From the NCBI GenBank assembly GCA_947585595.1, contig CANPXB010000014.1:1-38416 (forward strand): 38,416 nucleotides of DNA, in the 5' to 3' direction. This DNA is from an uncultured Bacilli bacterium. GTDB lineage: Bacteria; Bacillota_I; Bacilli_A; RF39; UBA660. Below are positions 6,746 through 33,828 of the stretch, one piece after another. The notes beneath the pieces were generated by a model that had not been told where the DNA came from, did no database searches, and was given only the letters and a program-made list of their open reading frames with translations. The position numbers and the translations under genes were made by a program. Within the stretch, counting starts at the first letter, position 1, and every line of letters begins with the position of its first letter.

Positions 6746-6751
6746 ACAATG

Positions 6752-6950
6752 AACATGTTGATTGGGACATAGTTATTTACTTCCTTATTTAAAGAGAGCT
6801 TAAGTAGGTGAGATTAAGCAATAATAGTAAATAATTCCTACCCATAAGTGAAGTATGAAAATACTTCCGGAAATATTTCCGTTATCAAAAAGAGTATATA
6901 AGGATGGTACCGTGCATAATGCACTCCTTTAGGTACCATCCTTTTTTATT
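6752..6950 (+). promoter_or_regulatory. T-box leader, proline specific (specifier CCU)
   Basis: The antiterminator signature GGATGGTACCGTG (6902-6914) is present. The competing terminator pairs 6902-6911 (GGATGGTACC) with 6932-6941 (GGTACCATCC), followed by six T. In Stem I, 6763-6766 (TGGG) pairs with 6841-6844 (CCCA), and 6774-6781 pairs with 6826-6833. Between them on the 3' side lies the specifier loop with CCT at 6837-6839 followed by A6840. Uncharged tRNA-Pro should bind the codon and the UGG bulge and permit readthrough into proS. The T-box call is secure. The specifier is read from the helix pattern and agrees with the downstream gene. Confidence 0.9.
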
Positions 6951-14565: not shown

Positions 14566-14994
14566 ATGAATACTGTTAAGTATAAAAAGATGGTTGAAGA
14601 ATTAACTCCTAAAGAAAACCGTCTATCTAACATGATAATTTCTTTTATTGGTGGTGGTTTAATAGGTGTTATTGGTACTTTAATATATCTTAATTTAAAC
14701 AAAGTATATAACTCTGAAGATTCTATTTCTTTTATGTTATTAATTTTTATCATAATATCGGCTTTTTTAACATGTTGTGGTTTTGCTGATAATTTATTTT
14801 CTAAACTAAAATGTGCTCTTATAATACCCATCACTGGTTTTGCGCATTCAGTATCTTCTTCAATTATTGATTATAAAAAAGAAGGCTTAATTAATATGGG
14901 GTCTAATACTTTTAAATTAGCTGGTTCAGTAATTCTTTATGGTACTGTTAGTGCCATTATCCTAACTTTAGTGAAGGTGATCTTAAATGTCTAG
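14566..14994 (+). CDS. spoVAC: Stage V sporulation protein AC
   Basis: 142 residues, close to the 150 of B. subtilis SpoVAC. It is an inner-membrane component of the SpoVA channel that moves Ca-dipicolinic acid during spore formation and germination. Matching segments include PKENRLSNMIISFIGGGLIG, ISAFLTCCGFADN, PITGFAHSVSSSIIDYKKEG and MGSNTFKLAGSVILYG, the last being strongly conserved in the family. Three to four hydrophobic helices are visible. The start is ATG after AACAGGTGATT, 24 bases after the sigma gene. It overlaps spoVAD by 8 bases, indicating translational coupling. Confidence 0.94.
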   Translation: MNTVKYKKMVEELTPKENRLSNMIISFIGGGLIGVIGTLIYLNLNKVYNSEDSISFMLLIFIIISAFLTCCGFADNLFSKLKCALIIPITGFAHSVSSSIIDYKKEGLINMGSNTFKLAGSVILYGTVSAIILTLVKVILNV

Positions 14995-15955
14995 TTTTAA
15001 ATATCATAAAGTTTATCTTAAAGATTATGAATCAATCGCTGGACCAGAAGAAGCTAAAGGTAACTTAGAATATCAAAATACTATTAAAGATTATTATTAT
15101 AATGAAAAAAGAATTGAAGATGCTGAAATAAAAATGCAAAATCTTTGTTTAATGAATCTTACTAAAAGAAATAACTTAAATAAAAAAATAGAGTTATTAG
15201 TTGGTGGTGATTTAATAAACCAAATAGCTATTACTTCTTATAATATTGCTAATCGTGATATTCCTTTTTTAGGACTTTATAACGCTTGTGCTACTTTTAA
15301 TGAAAGTTTAATTGTTCTATCTAATTTTATTGAATCAAACATGATTAAAAGTGGTTTAGCTATTACCTCTAGTCATAATCTAAATGCTGAAAGACAATAT
15401 CGTTTTCCTATTGAATATGGTTCACCTAAAAAATGTTATACAACTTTTACCACTACTGGTGCTGCTTGTGCTTATTTAACTAATGAAGAGAGTAATATAA
15501 AAATTGAATCTTCAACCATTGGTACTGTTGTTGATTATGGTATAAAAGATGCTTCTAATATGGGTGCTGTTATGGCTCCTAGTGCCGCATCTACCTTACA
15601 TAAACATTTAACTGAATTACAAAGAGATATAACTTACTATGACTTAATAATTACTGGTGATCTAGGTTCTTTTGGAAGTGAACTATTTTTAAAACTTATT
15701 AAAGAAGATTATAACTACATTCCTAAAGCTTATTTAGATGCTTCAAGTATTTTATATAAAGATAATCAAAATACATATCAAGGAGGTAGTGGACCAGTTG
15801 TTGTTCCTTTAGTTTTATTTAATAAAATATTTAAAGAAAAACAATATAAAAGGATTCTTATCTTAGCTACTGGTTCACTACATAATACTTTAATGGTTAA
15901 TTTAAAAAAGAGTATTCCTTCTATAACTCATGCTGTAAGTATCGAGGTGAAATAA
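14987..15955 (+). CDS. spoVAD: Stage V sporulation protein AD
   Basis: 322 residues against 338 in B. subtilis. SpoVAD is the soluble dipicolinic-acid-binding subunit with a thiolase-like fold that does not act as a thiolase. Recognisable stretches are IAGPEEAKGNLE at the start, LYNACATFNESLIVLSNFI, SSHNLNAERQYRFPIEYG, TTTGAACAYLT, DYYDLIITGDLGSFG-type wording near residue 225, and YQGGSGPVVVPLVL followed by ILILATGSLHN. The start is ATG after AAGGTGAT inside spoVAC. Its stop TAA shares a base with the spoVAE ATG (TAATG). Confidence 0.95.
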   Translation: MSSFKYHKVYLKDYESIAGPEEAKGNLEYQNTIKDYYYNEKRIEDAEIKMQNLCLMNLTKRNNLNKKIELLVGGDLINQIAITSYNIANRDIPFLGLYNACATFNESLIVLSNFIESNMIKSGLAITSSHNLNAERQYRFPIEYGSPKKCYTTFTTTGAACAYLTNEESNIKIESSTIGTVVDYGIKDASNMGAVMAPSAASTLHKHLTELQRDITYYDLIITGDLGSFGSELFLKLIKEDYNYIPKAYLDASSILYKDNQNTYQGGSGPVVVPLVLFNKIFKEKQYKRILILATGSLHNTLMVNLKKSIPSITHAVSIEVK

Positions 15956-32147: not shown

Positions 32148-32253
32148 ACTTAGAAGTATTAAACATTAGATAATTGATTTACCAAAAAATATTATATTTA
32201 TGTTTAGCACATCATGATTAGTAAATCATCAATAAAGTTTAGTATTAATAAGT
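32148..32253 (+). repeat. Long imperfect inverted repeat in the csp 3' untranslated region
   Basis: The arms 32148-32182 and 32221-32253 pair as ACTTA/TAAGT, GTATTAAAC/GTTTAGTAT (two G-U) and TGATTTAC/GTAAATCA, with internal loops between. The apical part contains TTAGCACAT (32204-32212), the exact complement of ATGTGCTAA (31910-31918) at the 5' end of the csp transcript. It is upstream of, and separate from, the terminator. It may stabilise the mRNA or yield a small RNA; this is inference. Confidence 0.5.
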
Positions 32254-32257
32254 ATAT

Positions 32258-32286
32258 AATAGCTACTTCATGTAGCTATTTTTTTT
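32258..32286 (+). terminator. csp terminator
   Basis: AATAGCTAC (32258-32266) pairs with GTAGCTATT (32272-32280), loop TTCAT, followed by T to 32286. The last two T belong to the TTGACA of the next promoter. Confidence 0.85.
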
Positions 32287-32313
32287 GACAAAATATTTGT
32301 TTCGTATTAAGAT
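32285..32313 (+). promoter_or_regulatory. Promoter of the hisS leader transcript
   Basis: A perfect TTGACA at 32285-32290 abuts the csp terminator. The best spaced -10 is TAAGAT (32308-32313, spacer 17); GATAAT (32311-32316) is an alternative at spacing 20. The start site falls near 32320, just before the leader-peptide ribosome site. Confidence 0.6.
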
Positions 32314-32337
32314 AATAACATGAAAGGGAAGATTACT

Positions 32338-32397
32338 ATGTTAGAATTATTAAATTTACATGTACATCATCATAATAATCTACACTTGTTTAAATAA
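32338..32397 (+). CDS. Histidine-rich leader peptide of hisS
   Basis: A 19-residue ORF, MLELLNLHVHHHNNLHLFK, stop TAA at 32395-32397. It is preceded by AAAGGGA (32323-32329) at normal spacing. Five of 19 codons are His, four of them within five codons (32359-32373, His-Val-His-His-His), plus CAC at 32383. Such enrichment, placed directly before mutually exclusive hairpins and a synthetase for the same amino acid, is the hallmark of a ribosome-stalling leader peptide, as in enterobacterial his operons. The peptide itself needs no further function. Confidence 0.85.
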   Translation: MLELLNLHVHHHNNLHLFK

Positions 32398-32490
32398 CAA
32401 ACGTTATGGTAACAAGTGTTATTTGTGATGCTTGTTACTTGTATATAATAAATAACTTTTAGAACTATACAAGTCGTATAGTTCTTTTTT
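32382..32490 (+). promoter_or_regulatory. Ribosome-mediated transcription attenuator of hisS
   Basis: Segment 1 (ACACTTGTT, 32382-32390, in the leader ORF) pairs with segment 2 (AACAAGTGT, 32411-32419). Segment 2, as GTAACAAG (32409-32416), pairs instead with segment 3 (CTTGTTAC, 32431-32438). Segment 3, as ACTTGTATA (32437-32445), pairs with segment 4 (TATACAAGT, 32466-32474). Segment 4, as AGAACTATAC (32461-32470), forms the terminator with GTATAGTTCT (32476-32485) and six T. A ribosome stalled at the early His codons leaves 1:2 free to form, so 3:4 blocks termination. A ribosome reaching the stop covers segment 1, so 2:3 forms and the terminator folds. The pairings are seen; the mechanism is inferred. 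Confidence 0.8.
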
Positions 32491-32526
32491 AGTAATAAGC
32501 ATCGAAAAAGAAAGAAGGAGATAAAA

Positions 32527-33828
32527 ATGATAATACAAAATGTTAAAGGTGGTTATGATTTCTTACCTAAAGAACAAAAAATTAGAAATTATATTAATGG
32601 TGTTTTAAAAAGTACTTTTGAAAACTATGGTTATCAACCAATTGAAACTAGTATTCTATGTTACTTTGATATGTTAGCTGGTAAATATGATGAAAATAAT
32701 GATATCTTAAATGAAATATATAAACTAACTGATCAAGGTAATCGTAAATTAGGACTTCGTTATGACTTAACTGTTCCATTTGCTAAATTTATTGCATTAA
32801 ATAAAAATGAAATTAAATTACCATTTAAAAGATATGAAATAAATAAAGTCTTCCGTGATGGTCCAGTAAAAGTTGGCAGAGATCGTGAATTTACTCAATG
32901 TGATGTTGATGTAGTAGGTTTAGATAATCAAATGATTGAAGCTGAATTATTAAGTCTTTATGTTGATGCTTTTACTAAATTAAATATTGAAATAATAATT
33001 AAATTCAATAGCCGTAATCTTATGAGTGGTTTAATAAAAGAAGCTGGTGTTAAAGAAGAATTAATTTCTAGTACTATTACTATCTTAGATAAAATAGATA
33101 AACTATCTAAAGAAGAATTAGCTAAAGAATTACTTAATATTGACTTAACTGAAACTGAAATAAAAACTTTATTAGATTACTTTACTTTAGATTTAACTAA
33201 GTTAAATAAAAAATTTAAAAATACTACAAATGAATTAATTATTAAAGGTTTAACCGAATTAAATAATTTAGTAGAGTTTATCAAGAAATTAGGTCTTGAA
33301 GATTATTGTATCTTTACTTCATCACTTGCTCGTGGTCAAGATTATTATACTGGTAATGTTTTTGAAGTATATGAAAAAAATGGTAAATTAAGTGCTGCTA
33401 TTGGTGGGGGAGGTCGTTATGATAAAATGATTACTGACTTCATTAATGATGGTAATTCTTATCCAGCTGTTGGTATTAGTTTTGGTTTAACATCTATTTT
33501 TGAACTTTTAAAAAATGATGAAACTTTAAACAATAATACATCCCTAGATTTATATATTATTCCTTTAGGTACTAAGTCCGAAAGTTTAAAACTAGCAAAT
33601 AAGTTACGTCAATATAATTTAAATATCGATATCGAAATGAATGATAAAAAAATTAAAAAAAGTTTAGATTACTGTAATAAAGAAAATATACCTTATGTTA
33701 TTATTCTTGGTGAAGATGAAATTAATAATCAAACATTTAATTTACGTAATATGAATACTAAAGAAGAATACCCAATTAAATTTAATAATTTAGAAAGTGT
33801 TTATAACATAATTAAAAAGGATAGATAA
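32527..33828 (+). CDS. hisS: Histidyl-tRNA synthetase
   Basis: 433 residues, typical of bacterial HisRS. It charges tRNA-His. Class II motif 2 and the surrounding HisRS wording are present (YEINKVFRDGPVKVGRDREF followed by TQCDVDVVG), as is the histidine-specific signature SLARGQDYYTGNVFEVY and motif 3-type GGGGRYDKMITDF. The N-terminal VKGGYDFLPKEQ corresponds to the usual KGTxDxLP. A C-terminal anticodon-binding domain ends it (LDLYIIPLGTKSESLKLANK). The start is ATG after AGAAGGAGATAAAA. It is regulated by the leader peptide and attenuator upstream rather than a T-box. Its stop lies in a hairpin shared with the convergent gene. Confidence 0.96.
   Translation: MIIQNVKGGYDFLPKEQKIRNYINGVLKSTFENYGYQPIETSILCYFDMLAGKYDENNDILNEIYKLTDQGNRKLGLRYDLTVPFAKFIALNKNEIKLPFKRYEINKVFRDGPVKVGRDREFTQCDVDVVGLDNQMIEAELLSLYVDAFTKLNIEIIIKFNSRNLMSGLIKEAGVKEELISSTITILDKIDKLSKEELAKELLNIDLTETEIKTLLDYFTLDLTKLNKKFKNTTNELIIKGLTELNNLVEFIKKLGLEDYCIFTSSLARGQDYYTGNVFEVYEKNGKLSAAIGGGGRYDKMITDFINDGNSYPAVGISFGLTSIFELLKNDETLNNNTSLDLYIIPLGTKSESLKLANKLRQYNLNIDIEMNDKKIKKSLDYCNKENIPYVIILGEDEINNQTFNLRNMNTKEEYPIKFNNLESVYNIIKKDR

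Follow-up and report, generated by a model that had tools for sequence, protein, structure and literature searches.

A histidine-codon leader with alternative RNA helices precedes an auxiliary histidyl-tRNA synthetase gene in uncultured Bacilli and points to an attenuator with exchangeable codon runs

A leader ORF lies upstream of hisS2

We analyzed a stretch of 38,416 nucleotides from an uncultured Bacilli bacterium (the whole stretch is hereafter the window), in which hisS2, encoding an auxiliary histidyl-tRNA synthetase of 433 aa (TIGR00442 hisS), occupies 32527–33828 on the forward strand, as do all leader features described below. Upstream of it, a leader promoter at 32285–32313 combines a −35 box (TTGACA, 32285–32290), a 17-nt spacer and a −10 box (TAAGAT, 32308–32313), and aligned relatives carry TTGACA and a −10-like box at the equivalent position. 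A ribosome-binding site visible in the sequence and kept in relatives (AAGGGA, 32324–32329) is followed by a leader peptide ORF of 19 codons at 32338–32397 (MLELLNLHVHHHNNLHLFK; ATG at 32338, TAA at 32395–32397) with His codons at 32359, 32365, 32368, 32371 and 32383. A first-pass annotation of this DNA had placed ahead of hisS an ORF of 19 codons that has a ribosome site and contains five His codons, and reading the sequence bears this out. The gene next upstream of the leader is cold-shock-like and has a T-rich hairpin of its own behind it, and because of that hairpin we consider hisS2 to be probably transcribed from its own promoter.

hisS2 is a second synthetase gene in a genome with T-boxes

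Evaluating the gene product against curated models, we found that HisRS2 scores 344.7 bits to TIGR00442 (above the cut-off of 286.75), while its best model is the PRK12420 HisRS subgroup (NF009085) at 493 bits, yet below the curated cut-off of 540. Its nearest solved structures are 6nhi (248 bits) and human cytoplasmic HisRS (202 bits), with weaker matches to 1qe0 (107 bits) and to bacterial HisRS entries of the E. coli type (85 bits). The canonical hisS lies on another contig of the same genome (G000:C8, the window being G000:C14), scores 484.9 bits to TIGR00442, is 27% identical to HisRS2 and is followed by asnS (516.6 bits). A T-box precedes this hisS-asnS operon (L002 2773–2956, reverse strand; 74.8 bits, below the Rfam gathering score of 93, E=1.6e-16); its specifier, read by eye, could be AAC (Asn), so that it may not sense histidine. 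The earlier view of a hisS under leader control in place of a T-box thus stands as to the leader and changes as to the gene, which is the second, auxiliary HisRS in a genome where a T-box stands before the canonical hisS-asnS operon. T-boxes had also been ascribed to proS and aspS in the window, and correctly so, at 151.6 bits for aspS and 85.5 bits for proS (6749–6931; below the Rfam gathering score of 93, E=3e-19, and missed by default scans).

Synthetase genes of Bacillota are usually under T-boxes, as are three in this genome (the canonical hisS, proS and aspS), and the region 5' of hisS2 might likewise be a T-box or another direct sensor of tRNA or ligand, with the ORF incidental. We regard this as very improbable: barring three matches at chance level, no Rfam family including the T-box (RF00230) was matched at 32150–32560 at E≤1, whereas conservation extends to the ribosome site, the start codon and the His run and, in homologous leaders, the codon run becomes Arg or Cys. 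The Rfam model search also gave no match of the enterobacterial his leader (RF00514) at the hisS2 leader.

Five RNA segments with alternative pairings

The leader RNA contains five segments that can pair in more than one way. Segment 1 (32382–32390) overlaps the end of the ORF and has segment 2 as its partner; segment 2 (32409–32421) can pair with 1 or 3; segment 3 (32426–32445) uses 32426–32438 for segment 2 and 32437–32445 for segment 4; and segment 4 (32461–32474) uses 32466–32474 for segment 3, as a putative antiterminator, or 32461–32470 for segment 5, which together with its T run (32476–32490) would complete an intrinsic terminator. Three pairings are present exactly where they had first been placed, namely 1:2 (9 bp, 32382–32390/32411–32419), 3:4 (9 bp, 32437–32445/32466–32474) and 4:5 (10 bp, 32461–32470/32476–32485, with the T run after it). 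The 2:3 pairing, given earlier as 8 bp, exists as well, and its length is 13 bp (32409–32421/32426–32438) once the loop-side pairs flanking a short loop are counted. Two further elements complete the architecture: a helix 0, absent from the earlier description, that spans 32331–32380 and joins the start region (32331–32340, GATTACTATG) to His/Asn codons (32371–32380, CATAATAATC), and an inner hairpin between segments 1 and 2 (32394–32407, pairing 32394–32398 with 32403–32407) that covaries. The structure of the window leader is beyond chance, with a fold z-score of −4.6 and none of 200 shuffles equally good.

The leader is conserved and its helices covary

Aligning the region with related genomes, a check that the first-pass annotation had proposed, we found the His run, ribosome site and helices kept in 20 aligned loci, with covariation. 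Specifically, a His-run leader with a ribosome site stands directly before hisS2 in 20 of the fetched loci, across many genera, with the core HHHNSLHLLIRH, and the HHH run is kept in 20/20 of the aligned leaders (as HHY in L044). The compared genomes are mostly metagenome bins (those with a named source are all bins except one distant genome without the leader), and the named relatives are uncultured Bacilli including Candidatus Coprovivens and Candidatus Faecisoma. A covariance model built from 18 leaders, with the window leader and its 88%-identical relative left out (R3), recovers the window leader at 32324–32488 with 95.5 bits and E=3.2e-17 (next best match, 27.6 bits); the match of the leader family to the window is not circular.

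Both sets of pairings are maintained among the 20 leaders. Helices 1:2, inner and 3:4 have 91.8% of cells paired with 6 pairs changed on both sides, and helices 0, 2:3 and 4:5 have 94.5% of cells paired with 7 such pairs, as against 21–53% of cells paired for slid control helices. Helix 0 by itself has 91% of cells paired and no pair changed on both sides; compensatory changes in it appear in L050 and L055 only on a hand-shifted reading of the alignment. In a larger alignment of 41 leaders of mixed specificity, 2:3 and 4:5 are 93.3% paired with 16 covarying pairs, and their doubly changed cells number 84 versus 16 in shuffles, with 0/500 shuffles reaching any of the measures; 4:5 covaries at 9/10 of its pairs. 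The same alignment, which was not fitted to the competing helices, gives 87.1% paired and 33 doubly changed cells versus 10 in shuffles for 1:2, inner and 3:4, and 97% paired with 5 covarying pairs for 1:2 alone. The least uniform helix is 3:4, with 80% in the common register and no double change there. As the shuffle control ignores relatedness, weight falls on the slid control and on segments that have been rewritten and still pair; in L055, read from the alignment, these are CATTTTCC/GGGAAAATG for 3:4 and TAGGAA/TTCCTA for 2:3.

Conservation of the peptide core HHHNSLHLLIRH would also be expected if the ORF encoded a functional micropeptide rich in His (one binding metal, for example), with the hairpins doing no more than terminating a separate short transcript. 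We give this reading the same slight chance as a T-box, given that a one-base shift after HHH in L034 and L040 converts the C-terminus to RTC-stop and leaves the RNA segments unchanged, that conservation tracks RNA pairing, and that the alternative pairings of segments 1–4 would be needless for a plain terminator.

Ribosome position shifts the predicted folds

We folded in silico the nascent RNA ending before segment 5 for 55 leaders, with the front edge of the ribosome placed 13 nt downstream of the first nucleotide of the codon in its A site. With the ribosome stalled at the first regulatory codon, the median numbers of pairs were 14.1 in 1:2, 0 in 2:3 and 14.0 in 3:4, whereas with the ribosome at the stop codon they were 0, 8.7 and 10.3, respectively. 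At the stop, 2:3 gained more than 1 pair in 52/55 leaders and 3:4 lost more than 1 pair in 39/55; switching in the wrong direction was seen in 2/55. Without a ribosome, the nascent RNA had medians of 14.6 pairs in 1:2 and 13.3 in 3:4.

Step-by-step folding of the window leader gave 1:2 and 3:4 (9 bp) for a ribosome halted on the first CAT in the HHH run and 2:3 for one at the stop. When the ribosome stands on the third CAT, 1:2 is already open in the best fold once segment 4 is present, which allows 2:3, and the early His codons should therefore matter most. A 6-bp part of 3:4 persists both in that state and with the ribosome at the stop, a point against attenuation set by ribosome position. 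Equilibrium folding of the full transcript did not discriminate the states, the terminator dominating in most of them regardless of the ribosome; antitermination would therefore have to be kinetic.

Taken with the kept His run and the covarying helices, these stall and stop folds support the mechanism and geometry first proposed, and we conclude that the leader very probably acts by ribosome-mediated transcription attenuation, so that more of the auxiliary HisRS is expressed when charged tRNA-His is short. When His-tRNA is low, a ribosome on the leader would stall at the codons at 32359–32373 and leave segment 1 free; 1:2 would then form, segment 3 would pair with 4, and the 4:5 terminator would be blocked, so that hisS2 is transcribed. 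When His-tRNA suffices, a ribosome at the stop codon (32395) would cover segment 1, 2:3 would form, and segment 4 would be left to segment 5, giving the 4:5 terminator and an end to transcription. What we observe are attenuator parts that are conserved and covary and that fold alternatively in silico; from these we infer stalling, termination and the response to histidine. A five-segment leader that is not translated is predicted to read through, because 1:2 and 3:4 form without a ribosome.

One scaffold with exchanged codon runs

Searching the 386 genomes of the family, we found leaders in 48 with model R1, whose training set consisted only of His leaders from in front of hisS2, and in 59 (41 genera) with model R2. 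For family assignments, leaders and first genes were read and representatives were profile-tested, with weak members scoring 33–60 bits. That the His-trained R1 also finds Arg, Cys and ABC-F forms speaks for a single scaffold and not for convergence.

Leaders with His runs precede varied genes. In five relatives within the genus (L091–L095), the operon after the leader holds phosphoribosyltransferase-like and SLOG-family genes with hisS2 last (families tested in L060 and L133), while in L059 the leader is followed by a protein that is racemase-like by eye (no Pfam match) and then by hisS2. His-run leaders also stand before hisG (L135 and L142, above cut-off), before M20 peptidases (L130 tested; L131, L136, L150 and L151 by sequence) and, in L148, before a GNAT-like gene and a CntK-like His racemase (114 bits, below cut-off). 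In L165, a His leader is followed by a 494-aa protein without a Pfam match, an S66 LD-carboxypeptidase and hisS2; L134, L137 and L141 likewise have a His leader before a protein of the 494-aa type and an S66 LD-carboxypeptidase (tested in L165). This arrangement may point to the use of peptides or to a means of withstanding a synthetase inhibitor (immunity).

On the same scaffold, Arg-run leaders (e.g., MILINIRRRRLRF) precede M20 peptidases in L152, L154, L155, L159, L160, L162–L164, L211, L216, L219, L224, L226 and others, the peptidase identity having been tested in L152 and L211. Cys-run leaders precede cysS in L149 (G408:C10, MLLYRNTCCMKSMHLSL) and L220 (G163:C97, MLNNMKYCCCCNNCLCCR), both above the TIGR00435 cut-off. 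A WRH/WHH leader (TWRHIGNTYT-like) is found before M20 peptidases in L157 and L208–L215 (L208 tested) and once before trpS (L217, above cut-off). Leaders that have no clear run and share a conserved VIMYI-like or KKIMYT stretch stand before genes of the ABC-F ribosome-protection type in L153 and L221–L225 (L153 and L221 above cut-off). In other Bacilli families, weak R2 matches (35–56 bits) mark His-run leaders before hisZ-like genes in L199, L201, L202, L205 and L227, with L199 and L201 tested, below cut-off, and the other three called by sequence; L203 was discarded as noise.

The ABC-F leaders in L153 and L221–L225, lacking a clear amino-acid run, would suit a sensor of general translation or of stress that targets the ribosome, in which the His run would serve as a weak or secondary cue. 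His runs stand, however, before His-related genes (hisS2, hisG, His-racemase-like) and Cys runs before cysS, and for the hisS2 leader we hold general stress sensing to be scarcely more probable than a T-box or a micropeptide. Amino acid-specific attenuation remains our preferred reading, and we think it likely that in this Bacilli family one attenuation scaffold has spread as a modular regulon in the fashion of T-boxes, its five segments kept, its codon run exchanged (His, Arg, Cys, probably Trp or mixed, and an ABC-F form) and its untranslated state on by default. If this is true, leader-peptide attenuators in Bacillota, besides arising as isolated inventions, could operate as a module that can be transferred and takes its specificity from a few codons, beside T-boxes in the same genome; the leaders would offer testable amino-acid assignments for uncharacterized peptidases and racemase-like genes; and an attenuator with an odd number of segments would be one whose untranslated state should be on.

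Relation to known attenuators

In the leaders of enterobacterial his and trp operons, stalling at a codon run sets mutually exclusive hairpins that end in a terminator. The leaders described here would share the stalling principle and differ in having five segments, such that the untranslated RNA is predicted to read through where theirs terminates. Streptomyces trpRS1, reportedly described by Vecchione and Sello as an antibiotic-resistant auxiliary TrpRS under ribosome-mediated attenuation, is like hisS2 an auxiliary synthetase with a leader peptide for its own amino acid and differs in synthetase and phylum.

The novelty first suggested for a leader of this kind before hisS falls to prior predictions. 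In 2010 Naville and Gautheret predicted that a His leader peptide precedes hisS* and hisZ in bacilli, while the main hisS is under a T-box (PMC2965389). Our locus resembles that system in that, again in Bacillota, a second HisRS paralog has upstream of it a leader ORF with His codons and a terminator, and the main hisS has a T-box. Compared by description, it differs from that system of Bacillus-kind bacilli in the five-segment scaffold and in the Arg, Cys and other versions, which are unreported there. Ashniev in 2022 described His attenuators before his operons in the B. cereus group, Peptostreptococcaceae and six Erysipelotrichales (PMC9413887); these likewise have 3–5 His codons in the leader with attenuator and terminator hairpins, and leaders of that sort are what R2 weakly picks up ahead of hisZ-like genes in other Bacilli families. 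They control biosynthesis operons, whereas the leaders here stand before the gene of an auxiliary synthetase or, in relatives, before genes for peptidases and racemase-like proteins. In Rhodobacterales, the uORFC-8-2 motif (PMC8632094) gives cysS a leader with Cys codons and a terminator; it is alphaproteobacterial, and our Cys leaders, likened to it by description, share the scaffold of the His leaders. Our searches of open-licence papers gave no description of codon-run exchange on one leader scaffold. What looks new here is that exchange, together with the occurrence in another lineage and the strongly covarying scaffold of five segments.

Occurrence of hisS2 and other features of the genome

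HisRS2 genes occur in 65/386 genomes of the family, and the idea that a leader precedes every one of them was rejected. In a more distant group (about 46–54% identical, L061–L090), R1 matched nothing at better than E=1, and none of the 20 loci searched with Rfam had a leader; some closer genes (e.g., L039, L043, L047 and L049) have no leader either. Further copies in the window's own genome were likewise dismissed, the other R1 and R2 matches there scoring 17.8–26.4 bits and the inspected ones (L098, L196 and L197) being without such a leader. Elsewhere in the window of this 1.55-Mb genome, a spoVAD-like gene at 14987–15952 (323 bits to PRK08304, below cut-off) adjoins genes resembling the rest of the spoVA set.
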